From a virus, in the IMG/VR virus record IMGVR_UViG_3300042291_000623, positions 1 through 27,493 of that record: a stretch of 27,493 nt of DNA, one strand, 5' to 3'. The position numbers were made by a program, and so were the translations under genes. Below are positions 1 to 18,945 of this stretch, piece by piece. The stretch's first letter is position 1, and each line of letters opens with the position of its first letter. The notes under the pieces are model-generated. The model was not told the DNA's origin and did no database searches. It worked only from the letters and a program-made list of their open reading frames with translations.

Positions 1-146
1 GTGTAACAGAAGCACTGGACACATCAGACGATGCTGGAGTTTGGATCAGAGACTTCATTGACAGCAAAAATCCAATGTTTGACGGCAAGAGCAAAAAAGA
101 ACGCATCCGCATGGCATTGGGCGCATGGTACGGCGCACAAAAGTAA
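1..146 (+). CDS. C-terminal end of an unidentified phage protein (5' truncated)
   Basis: An open frame enters from the window edge (first full codon at base 3) and stops at TAA 144-146, giving 47 residues of a C-terminus. The visible part contains VWIRDFIDS, then NPMFDGKSKKERIRMALGA. This charged segment resembles a short motif I recall from several marine T4-like phage proteins, where it precedes or follows unrelated domains; I cannot tie it to one function. An 11-bp intrinsic terminator follows 22 bases after the stop, so this is the last gene of its transcription unit. The start lies outside the window, so length and role are unknown. Confidence 0.6.
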   Translation, partial: VTEALDTSDDAGVWIRDFIDSKNPMFDGKSKKERIRMALGAWYGAQK

Positions 147-578: not shown

Positions 579-1499
579 ATGAAGATACCTCGACTAGGAT
601 TGGTTTGTATTAGCGCACGGTTGGCAAAACAAAAAGTTGCTGCCAAAACAATGACTCGCAAAAGCTTTTTAAGCAACTCTAGAGAAAAGAGTATTGAAGT
701 ACTATCGGAGCGCATCCTACACAATTCACGGCATGTCCTACAAACATTGCGTGCAGCACATGCGGCAGGAGCACGGCACTATCGTGTTAGCAGTTCTCTA
801 TTCCCGTTGGTCACTGACTCTACACTGGAATTATCATACACGGACCTGCATAACTTTGACACTATCTCCGCAAACCTAAGTGCCGCCGGCGACTATGCAC
901 GTGCGAATGATATTACCTTAAGTTCTCATCCTGACCAATTTAATGTACTTGTAAGCTATAATCCTGATGTTGTACGCCGTACCATACTAGAACTAAATCA
1001 TCAGAGCGCAGTACTCGACATGATGGGTGCTGCACACGACTACAGTTCTCCAATGTGTTTGCATTTAAACAAGACTCCTGAAGAACGTCGCGAAACGCTA
1101 GATGAATATGTCTCGCGCTTTTGCGCCAACCTAGGTCAATGCAACGAAGGTGTACGCAATCGGCTGGTCCTAGAAAACGAGGATAAGGCATATTGGAATT
1201 GTGATGCACTATACGAAAACTTTGGAGATAAGATACCACTCGTATATGATAACCTGCATGATGTTTGTAATTCATCATCCGATCCTGTGGAAAATGCTGC
1301 ACGCTTTAGAAAGACATGGCGTGGACATACACCCGTCTTCCATTGGAGTGAAGGTATTGGCAGTACTCGTAGTCATGCAGACTATGCAACTCATCTGCCA
1401 CATGTGGTCGCGCAGCACTCCGATGTTACTTGGGAAGTGGAACTCAAAGCCAAAGATGACGCTATTGCTCATATCCTAGAGTCATTTTTCCGCTCATAA
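579..1499 (+). CDS. uvsE: UV-damage endonuclease, UvsE/UVDE family
   Basis: A TIM-barrel nuclease that nicks DNA 5' of UV photoproducts and other lesions, starting alternative excision repair. At 306 aa it is the length expected for bacterial UvsE. Family signatures in order: RLGLVCIS at residue 5, SSHPDQFNVL (His117), CLHLN (His162), LENEDK (Glu199), VYDNLHD (Asp224, His227), FHWSEG (His255), and WEVELKAKDDA (Glu288). These match the metal ligands of the family. The lysine that is carboxylated in the Thermus enzyme lies two residues before the last His; here that position appears to be Val253 (from memory of the family). The ATG at 579 is only 5 nt after a -10 box, but a later start would remove the first barrel strand. 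It is a single-gene unit with its own promoter and terminator, probably expressed early to repair the phage or host DNA. Confidence 0.9.
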   Translation: MKIPRLGLVCISARLAKQKVAAKTMTRKSFLSNSREKSIEVLSERILHNSRHVLQTLRAAHAAGARHYRVSSSLFPLVTDSTLELSYTDLHNFDTISANLSAAGDYARANDITLSSHPDQFNVLVSYNPDVVRRTILELNHQSAVLDMMGAAHDYSSPMCLHLNKTPEERRETLDEYVSRFCANLGQCNEGVRNRLVLENEDKAYWNCDALYENFGDKIPLVYDNLHDVCNSSSDPVENAARFRKTWRGHTPVFHWSEGIGSTRSHADYATHLPHVVAQHSDVTWEVELKAKDDAIAHILESFFRS

Positions 1500-7284: not shown

Positions 7285-7560
7285 ATGATATTCTTAATAC
7301 GAGTATTTACATATTTAAATTGCATTGACTGTAGGCGGCATCTTGATACACTAGAAGAGTATTGTATGCGCACACCAGCACAACTTGAAGTCATTGACGT
7401 TGATCGTGAAGAGAATTTACCGTTAGCATTTCAACATAAGATAGAGGGTATACCACATACGCTTTGTTATGGCATACGCGGCAACATCTTACACAGCTTC
7501 TTTGGAGTAAAGAGCGTTGACCAATTTGCTGATATAATCTATGGTGCAGTTAGTAACTAA
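7285..7560 (+). CDS. Thioredoxin/glutaredoxin-fold protein
   Basis: A 91-aa protein with the thioredoxin-fold layout: a beta strand FLIRVFTYLN, the redox motif Cys13-Ile-Asp-Cys16 at the start of helix 1, a second strand LEVIDVDRE, and the cis-proline loop GIPHT (Pro57), followed by ILHSFFGVKSVDQF. CxxC plus cis-Pro supports a dithiol-disulfide reductase. T4 carries a comparable protein (NrdC) for its ribonucleotide reductase, but no such partner gene lies in the window. The start at 7285 comes 13 nt after the gp32 terminator. No clear sigma-70 promoter is visible, only an AT-rich stretch. The 3' end overlaps the convergent tape-measure gene by 11 bp. Confidence 0.8.
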   Translation: MIFLIRVFTYLNCIDCRRHLDTLEEYCMRTPAQLEVIDVDREENLPLAFQHKIEGIPHTLCYGIRGNILHSFFGVKSVDQFADIIYGAVSN

Positions 7561-9232
7561 ATGCCATACCACTCGCGCTCATAATTGGACTCATTGCAGG
7601 CGCATTATTATTTACATTACTGCTGCGCACGTTACTAACATTTCCACCGTTATTATTATTCACAACCACTGTAGAATTGCCTGATACACTTGCACCGGCA
7701 GCTTTTAGCGCTGCTCCAGTTGTACTTGGAATGCTCTGCATGTTTTCTTTAAATTGGTAACCAGAATCTTTATATTCTTGGAAAGAATTGTATCCTGCGG
7801 CTTTTCCCTTTTCATCATTGCTTAAAGCTGAAAAATCGCCTGAGGCCTTAGCAGTTTCCATTTTATCAACTGAAATTTCTGCTGGTGCTGAGCCAAATGC
7901 ATATTTGTATACCGCATCTGGTATCACACCTTGGATCATACCAATCGGATCATACCACGCACGCTTAACATTTGGATCTGGTAGTATAGCGCGTAATATT
8001 TTCTTATGAAACTCAGATATAGTATCACCCACGCTGCTAAACAATTCAATTGCGCCATCCATTGCGTCAATAAAAAATTGTCCAATTTTAAGTGGTAGCG
8101 TTGAAAAGAAATCTATAATGTTACTAAATACTGATCCAATAAATTCACCAATAGTTTCAGCAATGCCAAAGGTAAAATCTAAAAATTGTTTAAATAAGCC
8201 AGTGAACGAAAAACTATCAAGCGCCTTTTCAACATTTTCAAAACCAAGTGCGCCAGCAACCCATGATATGCCGTCCTTTATTAAATCGAGAAGACCGCCA
8301 ATGATTGAATCAAACACCCCAACCAGTGCTCCTTTAATACCACCAATGATACCGCCTTCTTTAAAGCCACTTATAAATCCAGTGATTGCTCCATAGATAC
8401 CTAAAATAATTGTAAGCGGTAACCCAAATATTTTACCTAGTCCTACAAGTAATCGACCAACTCCTTTAAGTAACTTTCCAAGTGTACCTCCTAATTTTGC
8501 ACCAGTGCTAAAGCCAGACTTGATACCATTAAATACATTTCCAAATACACCAAATAATTTTTTGGCAACATCAAAGACACCGCCTACAACTTTAACAATT
8601 GGAGAATTTGAAAATATGTTAAAGAAAGATTTGATCTTACCTAGGAATGTAGATAAGCCTTTAAATAAACTACTGCCTTTAAATTTTGTTACAAGATCGC
8701 CAATTGCATCGAAGACTCCTGTAATTTTTCGCACTATACTGTTATTCTTAAAGCGTGTTATTATATCATCAAAGAAACTTCCAATGCGTGTAAATAAATT
8801 TTTGACAGCTTGGCCAGTCTTTGACTCACGCAGTAGTTTTAGTGGTTTGGTTAATATACCTTTAAATTCTTTTAGGAAGCCAGCTACAAATCCAACCATA
8901 CCAGCACCAATTGCTGCTATGGTGCCAAATATTCCAAGGTTACCACCGCCACTTCGTGGGCTTGATGCTGGAACTGTTCGTTCTTCGCCACCGCCTCGTC
9001 CGCGTAATGCAGCAAGTAATTCGGCACGATCTTCTCGTTCTTGCAGCCGATTCCCTTGTAGGATTTCTCCAAGATTAACATTTGACTCTATAAGCATGTC
9101 AAACCGCCCAATCATATCAATCGTCAATAGCCGTAGATTGTTAAGCGTATCAACATTATCCAGCATCAAATCAGCTGAAGTGTTTGCGGTGCGTAATTCT
9201 TCTATGACAGTTTCAAGTGATCCGTTGTTCAT
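7550..9232 (-). CDS. Tape-measure-like tail protein (gp29-position)
   Basis: A 560-aa protein with the composition of a tape-measure protein. The N-terminal 75 residues are helical and acidic and include an Arg/Glu segment (RLQEREDRAELLAALRGRG). A hydrophobic segment lies at residues 99-120, followed by a long series of Phe/Gly/Lys-rich amphipathic stretches and a second strongly hydrophobic part near 265-300. The tail is Asn-rich (VVVNNNNGGNVSNV). T4 gp29, the tail-length ruler, is 590 aa. Its place directly after gp26 and the 51-like ORF matches the usual place of tape-measure genes after the tail chaperones. Its ATG overlaps the preceding stop (ATGA). The identification rests on composition and context, not on a specific motif. 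Confidence 0.65.
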   Translation of the reverse strand: MNNGSLETVIEELRTANTSADLMLDNVDTLNNLRLLTIDMIGRFDMLIESNVNLGEILQGNRLQEREDRAELLAALRGRGGGEERTVPASSPRSGGGNLGIFGTIAAIGAGMVGFVAGFLKEFKGILTKPLKLLRESKTGQAVKNLFTRIGSFFDDIITRFKNNSIVRKITGVFDAIGDLVTKFKGSSLFKGLSTFLGKIKSFFNIFSNSPIVKVVGGVFDVAKKLFGVFGNVFNGIKSGFSTGAKLGGTLGKLLKGVGRLLVGLGKIFGLPLTIILGIYGAITGFISGFKEGGIIGGIKGALVGVFDSIIGGLLDLIKDGISWVAGALGFENVEKALDSFSFTGLFKQFLDFTFGIAETIGEFIGSVFSNIIDFFSTLPLKIGQFFIDAMDGAIELFSSVGDTISEFHKKILRAILPDPNVKRAWYDPIGMIQGVIPDAVYKYAFGSAPAEISVDKMETAKASGDFSALSNDEKGKAAGYNSFQEYKDSGYQFKENMQSIPSTTGAALKAAGASVSGNSTVVVNNNNGGNVSNVRSSNVNNNAPAMSPIMSASGMAFSY

Positions 9233-9348
9233 TTCTTATTGCGTTGTTCTTCTTCTTTAATGTAATTTAATAACATCGATATATAAATTTCCCTCTCCCA
9301 CGGTAACATGGTTTCTAGCTCTGACAAACTATACTTGTGATGTTGCAT
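9229..9348 (-). CDS. 51-like ORF (39 aa), C-terminal part of a probable gp26 frameshift fusion
   Basis: On the minus strand an ATG at 9348 opens 39 codons: MQHHKYSLSELETMLPWERE, then IYISMLLNYIKEEEQ and a basic end. The YSLSELE-x-MLPWERE-IY pattern is one I recall from the short gp51-like hub-assembly or tail-chaperone proteins of marine T4-like phages. The same frame is open upstream without a stop and joins gene 26 by a -1 shift at 9405-9411, adding RLALSHDSLTNYYQTNFSL before the Met. In the fused form the product would be 293 aa. The stop overlaps the tape-measure ATG by 4 nt. Whether it is made alone, as a fusion, or both cannot be settled from the sequence. Confidence 0.7.
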   Translation of the reverse strand: MQHHKYSLSELETMLPWEREIYISMLLNYIKEEEQRNKK

Positions 9349-9383
9349 TAGTGAAAAGTTTGTTTGATAATAGTTTGTCAGAG
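9319..9383 (-). repeat. 14-bp perfect inverted repeat between gene 26 and the tape-measure gene
   Basis: CTCTGACAAACTAT (9319-9332) is the exact reverse complement of 9370-9383, with a 37-nt loop. On the minus-strand mRNA the stem begins 21 nt after the slippery heptamer, and its loop contains the ATG (9346-9348) of the 39-aa ORF. It could stimulate frameshifting or control internal initiation. Confidence 0.85.
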
Positions 9384-9398
9384 AATCATGCGAGAGGG

Positions 9399-10109
9399 CT
9401 AGGCGAAAAAAGATTGTGTTCCAGTTAAGACCTGAGAGTTATCTGTTTTGCATTGCGCACATACAAAGCGTATTTCATGTTGCAACTTTGGAGCGTTTTC
9501 GATATATGCCTCAATCTTAGATACTTGAGAGCGACTCAGTGAATTTACAAATTCTTTTAATTCAGCTTGTGAACTTTGAGCTGCAGGATATACAGCGCTA
9601 TCATCAAAGATTGATTCAATAGATGCAATAATCATGTTGGTAACTGTTTCAACATGTACGTTTTCGCCCAAGCCAATTTTATTTAGGTCATCAACTGATA
9701 TATGGCGTAGGACAATTCCAACCTTATCGGTTAACATAATCTTGTTATCCACCTTTGTGCTCGGCCATGTGACTTCAACCGTGTCTAGGTTAACTTCTAC
9801 TGGATTATATGTTTCACATGATGCGCATTTACATTTAATATTTACAATTTCACCTACGCTCTTTGCGCGCAGCTTTAAGAAAATATATTCAAGGTCAAAT
9901 GATGTTAAAAGGTTTGCTTTAACTGTTCCGTATGTACACGTCTCAACAACATCACGTATTGCGCTCATAATTTCCTTTTGGTCGTTTGACTCTTGTGCAA
10001 GCAAAAGAATCTTTTCTTCCTTGACAAGGAATGGACGATATTCAATTGTCTGCTGAGTTGACGGAACGGTCAACGTGTATTTTGGTGCTGTTAGTACTGG
10101 TAATGCCAT
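9399..10109 (-). CDS. 26: gp26-type baseplate hub / tail assembly protein (T4_baseplate family)
   Basis: A 236-aa protein of the T4 gp26 family (PF12322). The family opening is clear: MALPVLTAPKYTLTVPSTQQ, then TIEYRPFLVKEEKILLLAQE and MSAIRDVVETCTYG. T4 gp26 (208 aa) is needed for baseplate hub assembly. Two cysteine pairs, Cys95/Cys98 (CASC) and Cys217/Cys220 (CAQC), could bind zinc. The last codons form a slippery sequence (see 9405-9411), so a longer 293-aa form is likely. The start is the ATG at 10109, 25 nt after the late box at 10135-10142 (minus strand). The gene precedes the tape-measure gene, as tail chaperones do in other phages. Confidence 0.88.
   Translation of the reverse strand: MALPVLTAPKYTLTVPSTQQTIEYRPFLVKEEKILLLAQESNDQKEIMSAIRDVVETCTYGTVKANLLTSFDLEYIFLKLRAKSVGEIVNIKCKCASCETYNPVEVNLDTVEVTWPSTKVDNKIMLTDKVGIVLRHISVDDLNKIGLGENVHVETVTNMIIASIESIFDDSAVYPAAQSSQAELKEFVNSLSRSQVSKIEAYIENAPKLQHEIRFVCAQCKTDNSQVLTGTQSFFA
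9405..9411 (-). promoter_or_regulatory. Candidate programmed -1 frameshift site T_TTT_TTC
   Basis: Gene 26 ends TCT TTT TTC GCC TAG on the minus strand. The heptamer T TTT TTC is in the correct phase for a -1 slip. After the slip the frame is open for 58 further codons and reads straight through the 51-like ORF to its TGA at 9229-9231. Confidence 0.7.
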
Positions 10110-10145: not shown

Positions 10146-10727
10146 TTAGATTGATGTAAGAGGTCCAACAATTACAATACCATCTGGAATATTATCTTTA
10201 AAGCGTGGTATCACGCGATCACATGTTAGAGTCACACTCACTTTTTGAATGCTTGATTCATTTTCATGACTTAATTCCACACTCTGTATTTGATATGGGT
10301 ATGCACGTTGCAGTAAGACACTATATGTTTCTCTGTCCTGGTCATCGAGCTGTTTAATAACTATATTGCGTGTGTATTCATCATGATAACGTGTTAGGTA
10401 ACTATTTACTCCTATAATATAATTTGTCCATGCGTCAAACGCTCGCTTTGCAATGTAATTATTTGTCAGGTTAAATGTTAGAGTAACGTCATCGTCGACA
10501 AATCCAGTTGGTATCTTTAGTGCACGACGTGTTGATATTTCGTAATCAAGAGTAGTGATTTGCTTACCTGGGATTGTTACACTATCACACATAAATGATA
10601 GGTCACGTAAAGATTCAATATTTTCATTAAAACCTGGGATGTCAGTAATTGAAACCTCAAAACGATTTGGGCGCGCAAACCCACCGTTTATTGCAATTGC
10701 GTTTTTAAAGTCGTTTATTGATGACAT
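10146..10727 (-). CDS. gp19-family tail tube-like protein
   Basis: A 193-aa protein with the T4 gp19 tail-tube pattern. Near the N-terminus is NGGFARPNRFEVSITDIPGF (T4 gp19 has DFARPNLFQVEIS). It continues with LSFMCDSVTIPGKQI, VDDDVTLTFNLTNNY, a helix AFDAWTNYI, then NIVIKQLDDQDRETYSVLLQ, PYQIQSVELSHENES and IQKVSVTLTCDRV, which match the tube-fold strands that pair to form the inner barrel. It could be the main tube protein or a tube-like baseplate component such as the gp54-type initiator; position among hub genes rather than beside a sheath gene favours the latter. It lies 3 nt after the preceding gene, so it is co-transcribed with it. Confidence 0.7.
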   Translation of the reverse strand: MSSINDFKNAIAINGGFARPNRFEVSITDIPGFNENIESLRDLSFMCDSVTIPGKQITTLDYEISTRRALKIPTGFVDDDVTLTFNLTNNYIAKRAFDAWTNYIIGVNSYLTRYHDEYTRNIVIKQLDDQDRETYSVLLQRAYPYQIQSVELSHENESSIQKVSVTLTCDRVIPRFKDNIPDGIVIVGPLTSI

Positions 10728-15145: not shown

Positions 15146-16093
15146 ATGAAAATCGAAAATTGGTTTAACGCAACTGTAACAAATATTATAGATCCATTAA
15201 ATAGTGGACGTGTACAAGTGCGTGTCTTTGGCTATCATGATTTTGATGACATCCATCTTCGTGATGTGGATTTACCATGGGCAACGGTATTAATGCCAGT
15301 GACAAGCGCAAATGCAAACGGCGTCGGATCTAGTCCAACGGGACTGGCTGTAGACTCTTGGGTTTTTGGATTCTTTCGTGATCCTGATGCGCAAGATCCT
15401 GTCATCATTGGAGTAATCCCAGGTGTAAACGGAGCAGCAGACAGGTTTGTTATACCTAGAGATGCAACTAGTTATTCACGCGGTATCAGTGCAGCATCTA
15501 CATACAACACTTCAGGATATTCTACAGGTGCTCCAATAAGTAGTCCTGCAGCCACATCATCATTTGGAGATACGGCGCCACAGGTTGACCCTGCTACCAA
15601 TAGTGCAGTTGTGCGCGGCATGATTGCTGCGGCTCGAAAAGAAATTAATAACACAAATGGCGCAAAATATGGTGCGCCTCCTACATTATGGTGCGCAGGA
15701 TTTGTTACATGGTCTATCAAGCAAACAGGCTTAATACCAGATTCAGATTTACCTAAAAATCCAAATAGCGCTCTAGCGTGGCGGGATTGGGCAAACACTC
15801 CTACTGGTAGAAAGTATGTACATCTTGTAGACGATAACACATTGAGAGCAGGCGATATTGTAGTACGACACAGAGCAGAAGGTGGACATATTGGAATTGT
15901 TACAGTTGGATGCAATGATCGTAGGCGTGAACGTCATACTACCATTGAAGGCAATACTGGAAGTCAACGGCCAAGACGCGTCTTGGAGAGATCAACTCTC
16001 GCACAGTGGAAATATGTATTGCGTTGGAAAGATTCTGAAACATCACAAAGCGCAATAACTCAAATATTGTCGCCTTCCATATTTAACATATAA
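15146..16093 (+). CDS. 5: gp5-type hub protein: OB-fold plus CHAP/NlpC-type cysteine peptidase domain
   Basis: A 315-aa protein. Residues 1-95 are the gp5/VgrG OB-fold that sits on gp27: NWFNATVTNIIDPLNSGRVQ, VRVFGYHD, LPWATVLMPV, VFGFFRDPDAQDPVIIGVIP. After a Ser/Thr-rich linker (~100-150), residues ~155-300 form a cell-wall hydrolase of CHAP type: LWCAGFVTWSIKQTG with Cys183, GDIVVRHRAEGGHIGIVTVG with His248, and TTIEGNTGS with Glu268/Asn270 as likely third residue. T4 gp5 instead carries a lysozyme domain between the OB-fold and the needle. The needle beta-helix is encoded by the next gene. The enzyme would open the peptidoglycan during injection. Confidence 0.85.
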   Translation: MKIENWFNATVTNIIDPLNSGRVQVRVFGYHDFDDIHLRDVDLPWATVLMPVTSANANGVGSSPTGLAVDSWVFGFFRDPDAQDPVIIGVIPGVNGAADRFVIPRDATSYSRGISAASTYNTSGYSTGAPISSPAATSSFGDTAPQVDPATNSAVVRGMIAAARKEINNTNGAKYGAPPTLWCAGFVTWSIKQTGLIPDSDLPKNPNSALAWRDWANTPTGRKYVHLVDDNTLRAGDIVVRHRAEGGHIGIVTVGCNDRRRERHTTIEGNTGSQRPRRVLERSTLAQWKYVLRWKDSETSQSAITQILSPSIFNI

Positions 16094-16109: not shown

Positions 16110-16949
16110 ATGAATAACAATTCTTTTAGCGCGCCGTCCACATCAGATCAGGGAGTATATCCGTTTAATCATGTGCGGCAAACTCGCAGCGGGCACGTTT
16201 TTGAAGTTGATGATACTCTTGGCGAAGAGCGTATCCATGAGCGCCATAAAAGCGGCACTGAACGCACAATACTTGCAGACGGTACACGTCGCGTTATTGT
16301 TGTATCCGATAATCATCATGTGGTGATTGGCGATGATTATGTTAGTATCAACGGAAATGCAAATGTATATGTTAATGGCAATGTTAATATGTCAGTGAAT
16401 GGAGACTATAATCTTGAAGTTAACGGCAGTATGAGCCAAACAGTAAAAGGTGAATATCGTCTTAAAGTTGGTGCCGCACATAAGACTGAAGTTGGTGCTG
16501 ACAGCGCGATAAACATTATTGGTAAACAGGATGTGATTGTAGGTAACGGCATAAATAATACGGTGCGTGCTGGCGGAATAAACACGATGGTTATTGGACC
16601 AATTAATGAAACAAATATAGGCGAGCGAACTGCAGTTTGTACAGGGTCAATATCGTTCGCTGGCTCAACAGGATTTAGCGCTCATGCGCCTGGCGGTGCA
16701 GCAATAATTGGTGGATTATCAGTTGGGGTTGACAGCGCAAGTATATTATCATTAACTTCGACGTCAACAACAAACATGACTTCTTCGATTACAAACATAA
16801 CAACATCACGCGTAAACGTAATTGGCGGAGCACTTGTTGCCACAGGTGATGTTGGAGCATTAGGCGGAATGTTTACACTCGCTACCCATAAACACTTAGG
16901 AGATGGTGCTGGCGGTACTCCTGCGGCAACAAGTCCACCAATCCCATAA
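16110..16949 (+). CDS. gp5 C-terminal beta-helix (puncturing needle) encoded as a separate gene
   Basis: A 279-aa protein. The start region HVRQTRSGHVFEVDDTLGEE, RIHERHKSG is the typical entry to the gp5/VgrG needle. A long run of short beta repeats follows, with regular Val/Asn/Gly spacing: NANVYVNGNVNMSVNGDYNL, EVNGSMSQTVKGEYRLKVGA, as in the trimeric beta-helix of T4 gp5. The C-terminus has GMFTLATHKHLGDGAGGTP, a common ending of gp5-type needles. The protein must dock onto the OB-CHAP protein to rebuild a full spike. No PAAR tip gene is recognised in the window. It has its own late promoter. Confidence 0.8.
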   Translation: MNNNSFSAPSTSDQGVYPFNHVRQTRSGHVFEVDDTLGEERIHERHKSGTERTILADGTRRVIVVSDNHHVVIGDDYVSINGNANVYVNGNVNMSVNGDYNLEVNGSMSQTVKGEYRLKVGAAHKTEVGADSAINIIGKQDVIVGNGINNTVRAGGINTMVIGPINETNIGERTAVCTGSISFAGSTGFSAHAPGGAAIIGGLSVGVDSASILSLTSTSTTNMTSSITNITTSRVNVIGGALVATGDVGALGGMFTLATHKHLGDGAGGTPAATSPPIP

Positions 16950-16950
16950 T

Positions 16951-18945
16951 ATGCCACTATCAAAATTTTTATACATTACACTAGCAGATTCCAACGGTGA
17001 TGCCTTTGGAGTACCATTGACATATAACGGAGCAGCGCGAAATATAGAGAGTCTTTTAAAGATCTATCGCATTACACAAGAGCGTGTATCATCAACTCCA
17101 TGGCAGGTGACTGAAGTGCCGCAGGCTGACGTTAACATAAGTGTAACATATGGCAGCACCTTAGACACATTAACAGGCGCGCCAAAAAATGTAGGGCGCT
17201 ATGACTATACAATAAACATTACATTAAAGAGCGATGCTACATATCGTGGTTATTTTTCAACTGTATATGGCAGTACACCTCCTGCTGGAGTGCCTGCATA
17301 CGATGACATTGTAAAAAACAATGTATTCATAACTGATATAAGAACACAACACCCAGGAGTATTTCCAATACGTTCACCAGATGCAGTTTTTGAAACACTA
17401 GTTGATACAATAAAGTATTTGACCGTTGCACCACTATCTGTGGCCATAACATTTCCAAGTCTTGAAACAAAAGACAACAAAAAACCGCAAGCATGCGCGT
17501 ATAGTACCTCTATAAAAATACTAGATACAGCAGCACCAAATTTTGGATCTGATATACCTGCACGTGTAACATATTCAGGTCAAGACTCTCCACTTGCTGC
17601 TCCTAAGAATGCTGGGACATACGCTGTAACTGTTACACTAACAGATTTTAATTATGTCGGAAGCGCAAATGCGCAATACGTCATAACGCCTCGCACCGTT
17701 GCTGATGGCATTGCAGATGAGCAACTCTATAATAGTAATCTGCAAGCATTGCCAAGTAAGACTCGTATTTGGATTGATGAAACTGGTTTTTCTGATGATA
17801 ATGCTAAACGAGACTTTATACAAAACGGTATATTGTCAGTAGTAGATAATGCAAATAGTGAAATCTTAAATCTTGATAATGGGTTATATCAACAAGCAGC
17901 AACTATTGCAGATTGCGCGCGTAACCTCCCACAAAAACTTGCAATCATAGCTGCCGCAAAGCTTGTGCAATTGGCTGCAAGTTATGTGCCTGGGCTTGGT
18001 ATTGTTAATATGTTAACCGAGGTGCAATCAAGAATTGCACAAGTACAAAAGCTCATGGAACTTATACAATTTGTTAAAGATAATCCATGGGCATTTGCAA
18101 ATGCAGTCCTAGAGTCTTCAGGTGCTTATGCAAAGACTGGAGCGTTTGTTGGAGATCAACTTGAAAAGTTGCAAGCGGCATTTCCTGAAGCAAATAATAT
18201 CGGTCAAACAATAAAAGATGTTGCAGCTGGAGTAGTAAATGTATGTAACTTAGTTGATACAAACAGCGGACCTGTAGCACGTCTTATTAAAGCAGATACA
18301 CGGCTCGCACCAGAACTTATACCTGGGTTTAATCCACCAGTCTATCGTCAGCCTACGGTACAAAAGACAGAGTATGATTATATGTTGTTTCGTTTAAGTG
18401 AGCCATTATTTAAGGACAATGAAAAGATACAATCTTTAAAGGCAGCTGGAGATGAAGCTGGTTTGCGTGACTATATAACTATGTTGGGTGCAGTGCATGA
18501 ACTTGCATACAACTATCATGATGATATTGCATCAACCGCAGCTCCTGTCGGATTACTAAGCAGCTCCGCAGCAACATCATTGGACGAAACGTATAATAAC
18601 ATCAATAATGTAAACGGTATCTTACAAGGTATTTATGGAGCACCAAGTGGCGATGTTCTTCAGTCAACAACAACATCCACTGCAGGAACTGTAACAAATG
18701 CAGTCCTTTCAGGATTTGATCGCGGCGTAAACATTGCAAGTGCTGCTCTAACTGGAAATGTGAAAGAAGCGTTACTCGCATTTAGCAGTAAGTATGATTA
18801 TAGTGTAAAAGCAACACTGGAGAACCATCCATATTGGAGACCTGAAACAATAAAAGAATTTACTGATAGGACAAACAGTATTAGGAATGAACTTAAATCT
18901 GGCACACAAGCAATACGTTCCAATCCAGCATTTGCGCGTTCTTAA
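16951..18945 (+). CDS. Virion structural protein with two MBG-like beta-sandwich domains
   Basis: A 664-aa protein; the ATG at 16951 is used because the frame further upstream lies in the needle gene. Two segments resemble MBG-type domains known from bacterial adhesins: SVTYGSTLDTLTGAPKNVGR with YDYTINITL (residues ~60-100) and ARVTYSGQDSPLAAPKNAG followed by TYAVTVTLTDFNYVG (residues ~200-240). The region after residue 250 is mostly helical (IVNMLTEVQSRIAQVQKLME; LQAAFPEANNIGQTI), with no recognised domain. Position between the needle gene and gene 25 suggests a baseplate or tail-tip component. It may bind a host surface structure via the MBG-like domains, which is inference. No catalytic motif was found. 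Confidence 0.65.
   Translation: MPLSKFLYITLADSNGDAFGVPLTYNGAARNIESLLKIYRITQERVSSTPWQVTEVPQADVNISVTYGSTLDTLTGAPKNVGRYDYTINITLKSDATYRGYFSTVYGSTPPAGVPAYDDIVKNNVFITDIRTQHPGVFPIRSPDAVFETLVDTIKYLTVAPLSVAITFPSLETKDNKKPQACAYSTSIKILDTAAPNFGSDIPARVTYSGQDSPLAAPKNAGTYAVTVTLTDFNYVGSANAQYVITPRTVADGIADEQLYNSNLQALPSKTRIWIDETGFSDDNAKRDFIQNGILSVVDNANSEILNLDNGLYQQAATIADCARNLPQKLAIIAAAKLVQLAASYVPGLGIVNMLTEVQSRIAQVQKLMELIQFVKDNPWAFANAVLESSGAYAKTGAFVGDQLEKLQAAFPEANNIGQTIKDVAAGVVNVCNLVDTNSGPVARLIKADTRLAPELIPGFNPPVYRQPTVQKTEYDYMLFRLSEPLFKDNEKIQSLKAAGDEAGLRDYITMLGAVHELAYNYHDDIASTAAPVGLLSSSAATSLDETYNNINNVNGILQGIYGAPSGDVLQSTTTSTAGTVTNAVLSGFDRGVNIASAALTGNVKEALLAFSSKYDYSVKATLENHPYWRPETIKEFTDRTNSIRNELKSGTQAIRSNPAFARS

Follow-up and report, generated by a model that had tools for sequence, protein, structure and literature searches.

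A predicted -1 ribosomal frameshift joining gene 26 to a gp51-like frame in tail assembly chaperone genes of T4-type phages

The tail assembly chaperones of phages lambda (gpG/gpGT) and P2 comprise a short product and a long product made by a -1 frameshift, which serve the tape measure and tube proteins (PMC5009743). A 2016 review of recoding described this tail frameshift as widely conserved "except T4", and T4 has long been quoted as the exception among long-tailed phages (PMC5009743). A 2010 review of the T4 tail listed gp26 and gp51 as hub assembly chaperones, gp51 being essential and of unknown function. The chaperone genes of T4-like phages were the subject of Vladimirov, Gautam and Davidson (2022, Virology 566:9-15), whose work identified them, judging by its title and by the papers citing it (PMC10885494, PMC12846349). 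The citing passages credit that work with T4-like phages in which a short gene and a fused long gene take the place of the frameshift (PMC10885494), and with poly-T -1 frameshift signals in the T4-like short gene (PMC12846349). The relevant passages of the phage Adele paper also describe, in the Vandenendeviridae and Andersonviridae, a short/long chaperone whose slip motif is poly-T and whose -1 frame is unbroken in every genome (PMC12846349).

Gene 26 and the overlapping 51-like frame of the window

The window, meaning the whole stretch of 27,493 nucleotides analysed here, is a 27.5-kb fragment of an uncultured T4-like phage represented by an IMG/VR contig. On its minus strand, gene 26 (9399-10,109) encodes 236 aa in the zero frame, the putative short chaperone form (TAC-N), with matches to phrog_150 (E 2.2e-62) and PF12322 T4_baseplate (E 5.2e-60). 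The locus sits between a tail tube (gp19-like) gene directly upstream (minus strand, 10,146-10,727; phrog_45, E 4.5e-40) and a tape-measure-like gene of 560 aa (minus strand, 7550-9232), the latter assigned by position and by weak profile matches of a low-complexity protein (phrog_58 tape measure, E 1.8e-10). Caulobacter phage Cr30, where the gene two places downstream is annotated as tape measure, lends positional support to this assignment.

A first-pass annotation of the window had placed a slippery heptamer at the end of gene 26 and predicted a fusion across it, and direct reading of the minus strand bears out both to the base. The 3' end of gene 26 is CAA TCT TTT TTC GCC TAG, in which T TTT TTC (9411-9405) stands in the X XXY YYZ phase and the zero-frame stop TAG (9399-9401) falls within the 6-nt spacer between the heptamer and the RNA stem described below. 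From about 9438 the -1 frame runs without a stop to a TGA at 9231-9229. Its 51-like extension (TAC-C; minus strand, 9229-9405) joins gene 26 after FF and runs for 58 codons (RLALSHD...NKK) plus the TGA; after the slip it would read FF-RLALSHDSLTNYYQTNFSLMQHHKYSLSELETMLPWEREIYISMLLNYIKEEEQRNKK, giving a predicted fusion of 235 + 58 = 293 aa. The proposed ATGA overlap is also present, with the tape-measure-like gene starting at 9232. The extension (57 residues) matches phrog_634, "baseplate hub assembly catalyst" (E 5.3e-27), and also positions 236-276 of phrog_150; since these lie at the end of that family, some phrog_150 members evidently hold both parts in one chain. The 39-aa "51" ORF that gene callers would report starts at an internal ATG of the domain (minus strand, 9346-9348), which no Shine-Dalgarno sequence precedes.

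Several other features of the window were recorded. The gp5-type hub protein is divided between two plus-strand ORFs: one (15,146-16,093) with an OB domain and a CHAP domain where T4 has lysozyme (phrog_430 positions 18-187), the other (16,110-16,949) holding the separate C-terminal trimerisation/needle part (phrog_430 positions 321-568). T4 makes the same cut in its hub protein by proteolysis. Between these ORFs and a gp25-like gene lies a 680-aa protein with MBG domains (16,903-18,945, plus strand), which has no phrog match and whose content is unusual for a baseplate region. An intact homologue of the UV-endonuclease UvdE, a phage-borne DNA repair gene, is found at 579-1499 (plus strand; E 7e-39). 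Finally, an open frame of 251 codons on the strand opposite the tape measure gene (8505-9260, plus strand) is probably an effect of composition.

Conservation of the slip site and competing readings

We compiled 95 loci, comprising the window, 80 IMG/VR relatives with 36-68% identity in gene 26 (search table) and 14 phage isolates. The isolates were Stenotrophomonas Menderavirus, Vibrio D482, QD01 and KVP40, Pseudomonas Otagovirus, Rhizobium Pootjesviridae, Sinorhizobium phiN3, Caulobacter Cr30, Aeromonas phiAS5, Pelagibacter Mosig and the cyanophages S-PM2, S-WAM1, P-RSM6 and P-SSM5. Because loci were picked by gene 26 similarity to the window, the sample leans towards its relatives.

The expectation that both the heptamer and the open -1 frame would be conserved across T4-like phages was borne out. 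An in-phase T TTT TTN is present in 94/95 loci (N is C in 64, T in 27, A in 2 and G in 1), within a run of 6-7 T. In 81/81 loci (the window and the 80 IMG/VR loci) the 51 domain is encoded in the -1 frame, which stays open across the overlap, and the same arrangement recurs in Menderavirus, Schizotequatrovirus, Otagovirus, Pootjesviridae, Emdodecavirus, Chrysonvirus, Kyanoviridae and Cr30. No related phage examined has a -1 stop between the heptamer and the 51 domain. The zero-frame stop follows 7-31 nt past the heptamer start in 94/94 loci, mostly at 10 nt. The single exception, L068, reads AGT GTT TTC with GTA next, a T-to-G change at the second heptamer base; its site resembles that of the Ackermannviridae and may be a sequencing error or a real variant.

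In the Ackermannviridae and their relatives (L090, L105-L110), the gene 26 homologue likewise ends with an open -1 extension past the stop, which in the Kuttervirus group is clearly 51-like (YSIFEISESMPWHLD). Here the slip site is N NTT TTY (ATT, GTT or CTT, then TTC or TTT) rather than T TTT TTN, and folding of the region past it gave no consistently strong structure.

A conserved Phe-Phe end could by itself place T's here, with the ORF overlap arising by chance, and FF is indeed kept in T4 gp26 (KEFFELL), where a frameshift is unneeded. T4, however, encodes this FF as TTC TTT after GAG, which shows that FF can be kept without the heptamer. The codon ahead of the slip is AGT in 32 loci, TCT in 23, GAT in 21, AAT in 12 and GCT in 6 (Ser, Asp, Asn, Ala), always with T as its third base; against the codon use of these genes, the log10 probability of this choice is -12.9 over 32 loci that share less than 50% identity and were counted as independent. 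An in-phase T6 occurs at 18 of the 21,868 other codon positions in these genes. A preceding codon that varies yet always ends in T, this low probability and the rarity of T6 elsewhere therefore point to selection on the nucleotides themselves. On the T4 codons and the codon-choice probability we reject an accidental heptamer, which we regard as practically inconceivable.

Public records annotate the ORF as a gene of its own, "baseplate hub assembly catalyst", and a stop lies near it, as would be expected were the 51-like ORF translated on its own through re-initiation or coupling at the overlapping stop, with no fusion. Against this, our start survey found no well-defined independent start: a start codon near the 51 domain boundary exists in 10/94 loci, with a Shine-Dalgarno sequence in 1, and the ATG commonly chosen by annotators lies ~20 codons inside the domain. 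For the segment ahead of that ATG, the -1 frame has a dN/dS of 0.17 and each of the remaining frames a value >1, and the segment is contiguous in T4 gp51; the 51 frame is under purifying selection, without a conserved start codon. Separate translation also leaves the heptamer unexplained. On this survey we reject an independent start for the ORF, and we consider separate translation highly improbable. Slippage of RNA polymerase on the 6-7 T run, which would put part of the mRNA into the -1 frame, would yield the same proteins, and nature does use such slippage at longer runs. Six T's are short for it, though, and both the exact X XXY YYZ phase that is kept and an RNA structure 5-8 nt downstream, the spacing of ribosomal frameshifting, speak against polymerase slippage, which we judge very improbable.

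We conclude with high confidence that gene 26 forms a single gene with the 51-like ORF, from which programmed -1 ribosomal frameshifting, with a downstream RNA structure stalling the ribosome, gives a short 236-aa and a long 293-aa chaperone. Read from its sequence, the phage almost certainly makes two versions of a tail-building helper protein from one gene by a -1 slip. The sequences show the arrangement and its conservation, constraint at the codon level, selection on the -1 frame, homology to T4 gp26/gp51 and a predicted RNA structure with covariation; from these we infer the slippage itself, how often it happens and the action of the products as chaperones.

RNA structure downstream of the heptamer

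A slip site with a downstream fold at such a spacing forms the usual equipment of a bacterial -1 frameshift site. Relative to shuffles, the 120 nt past the heptamer had a mean z of -2.87, with 71% of loci below -2, compared with a mean of -0.72 and 12% below -2 for control windows inside gene 26 of the same loci (Mann-Whitney p 7e-22). The homologous place in 13 T4-type one-ORF gp51 genes gave a mean z of -0.56; T4-type one-ORF gp51 lacks the conserved RNA structure. The first helix starts 5-8 nt past the heptamer in 69% of loci, against 20% of gene 26 controls and 13% of shuffles.

A single consensus fold for all loci was rejected, as RNAalifold returned no structure on the whole alignment. 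Averaged pair probabilities nevertheless revealed a shared outer stem, supported by covariation: its 5' arm (alignment columns 14-25; minus strand, 9387-9398 in the window) starts 6 nt past the heptamer and its 3' arm lies at columns 110-121 (minus strand, 9291-9302). This conserved 12-bp stem closes ~84 nt. The window pairs 11 of the 12 positions, with one G-G mismatch, and its arms encode ALSHD and PWERE in the -1 frame. Nested within it is a perfect 14-bp inner stem found mainly in the window's own lineage, with arms CUCUGACAAACUAU (9370-9383, minus strand) and AUAGUUUGUCAGAG (9319-9332, minus strand); 0/200 shuffles were as stable (z -4.2), and the window's own fold ranged from z -4.2 to -4.6. 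The cyanophages S-PM2 and S-WAM1 and the locus L051 use local hairpins, and some lineages pair with a different 3' partner.

Across 68 distinct sequences, 77.9% of stem cells pair, against 73.1 ± 0.8 in shuffled alignments, and changes on both sides of the stem occupy 58 cells against 31.4 ± 4.3, a level reached in 0/500 shuffles. Slid registers of the stem pair at most 69%. Permuting synonymous codons within columns left an excess of z 5.3 for all pairs and 7.0 for Watson-Crick pairs, and no other 6-bp helix in the region scored above the conserved stem in this test. On the gene 26 tree, the two wobble-wobble pairs 15-120 and 18-117 had 4 and 3 compensatory events; of the other third-position pairs, 1.7% and 5.3%, respectively, did as well. 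Phylogeny-aware covariation is modest, supportive rather than overwhelming. The conserved fold probably drives the slip. No Rfam family matches the stem region, and we found no description of the stem in the open-access literature searched, which does not prove its absence.

Relation to T4 gp26/gp51 and to other known systems

In T4, gp26 (208 aa) and gp51 (249 aa) are encoded on opposite strands. Both belong to PF12322/phrog_150, and gp51 alone carries the phrog_634 extension. T4 gp51 is colinear through the junction with the predicted fusion of the window (SFFRLALSHDSLTNYYQTNFSLMQHHKYSLSELETMLPWERE), and this unbroken sequence marks it as a one-ORF version of that fusion. T4 gp26 and gp51 are paralogs matching the short form and the fused long form. 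The first-pass annotation had named no accepted frameshift in T4-type gp26/gp51 and held that T4 gp51, described as a catalyst of hub assembly not retained in the virion, would fit a chaperone. The homology as short and long forms stands; T4 itself has no frameshift here and uses two paralogous genes instead. The in-phase heptamer is absent from the short-gene ends of T4, Aeromonas 31, Proteus phiP4-3, Acinetobacter KARL-1 and RB43.

In a tree rooted with the Ackermannviridae and their relatives, a single clade (UFBoot 99) unites the T4-type gp26 and gp51 proteins and branches from within the frameshift users, with several other nodes weaker (58-79). On this tree the two-gene T4 state appears derived, and one duplication replacing frameshifting would be the simplest history. 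A search of 624 phage records returned one matching place per record, and no separate paralogous long-form gene was seen on the 27.5-kb contig, itself a fragment. By these data the frameshift is the common state in T4-type phages, and probably the ancestral one there, with T4 gp26 and gp51 being the two frameshift products split into two genes. We lean slightly towards a broader proposal, that most chaperone genes of the T4 superfamily carry a conserved, previously undescribed stimulator, a long-range 12-bp stem 6 nt past T TTT TTN that closes ~84 nt with the stop in the spacer, and that this element was lost when the ancestor of T4 swapped frameshifting for duplication.

These results also touch on annotation. 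Many cyanophage and vibriophage records list a separate "hub assembly catalyst" gene that probably does not exist, often truncated, or list none. The public records compared (e.g., S-WAM1, ACG-2014h, S-CAM1, Mosig) either give the 51 frame as a gene of its own, in some cases with a start within the domain, or omit it, and none annotates the gene 26-51 join. The KVP40 record notes a small protein resembling the C-terminus of T4 gp51.

The heptamer, the -1 frame, the missing start, the selection and the T4 homology together identify the locus as a short/long tail assembly chaperone pair of the lambda G/GT type, as first proposed; the homology of gp26 with the short form and the colinearity of gp51 with the fusion uphold this reading. 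An AlphaFold2 model of gene 26 (pLDDT 90.5) strongly matched predicted viral hub chaperones. Its matches to solved chaperones were weak: HK97 gp13 (2OB9; probability 0.41, E 0.87) and 3FGX (probability 0.28) had the top Foldseek probabilities among the 50 matches listed and were not significant. Sequence searches of solved structures with gene 26 and T4 gp51 gave no match, nor did a fold search with a model of a T4-type gp51.

Under the proposed mechanism, most ribosomes would read gene 26 to the TAG and release the 236-aa short chaperone, while some, held by the RNA stem 6 nt downstream, would slip back one base at T TTT TTC and go on for 58 codons to yield the 293-aa long form (TAC-NC). If lambda gpG/gpGT is taken as the model, the product of the next gene, the tape measure protein, may be coated by many copies of the short form and few of the long one, the extension of the long form may recruit the tail tube subunits encoded upstream, and both forms would leave before the virion is complete.

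The likeness to lambda and P2 lies in a short product accompanied by a long -1 product, with the chaperone role of the window's proteins suggested by analogy. The lambda heptamer is G GGA AAG, and we know of no long-range stem of the window's sort in lambda or P2. T4 shares with the window the PF12322/phrog_150 and phrog_634 families, a short and a long form, and the same C-terminal extension; T4, Aeromonas 31, Proteus phiP4-3, Acinetobacter KARL-1 and RB43 use two paralogous genes, whereas the window uses one gene and a -1 slip. The motif of the Vandenendeviridae and Andersonviridae, families other than the window's, is GTTTTT, and the passages describing it do not mention RNA structure (PMC12846349). 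The first-pass annotation had named the frameshift as no accepted feature of T4-type gp26/gp51; the idea has precedent, and since the citing passages already give both the two-gene solution and the poly-T signals (PMC10885494, PMC12846349), the principle is known and the window locus is a new member.
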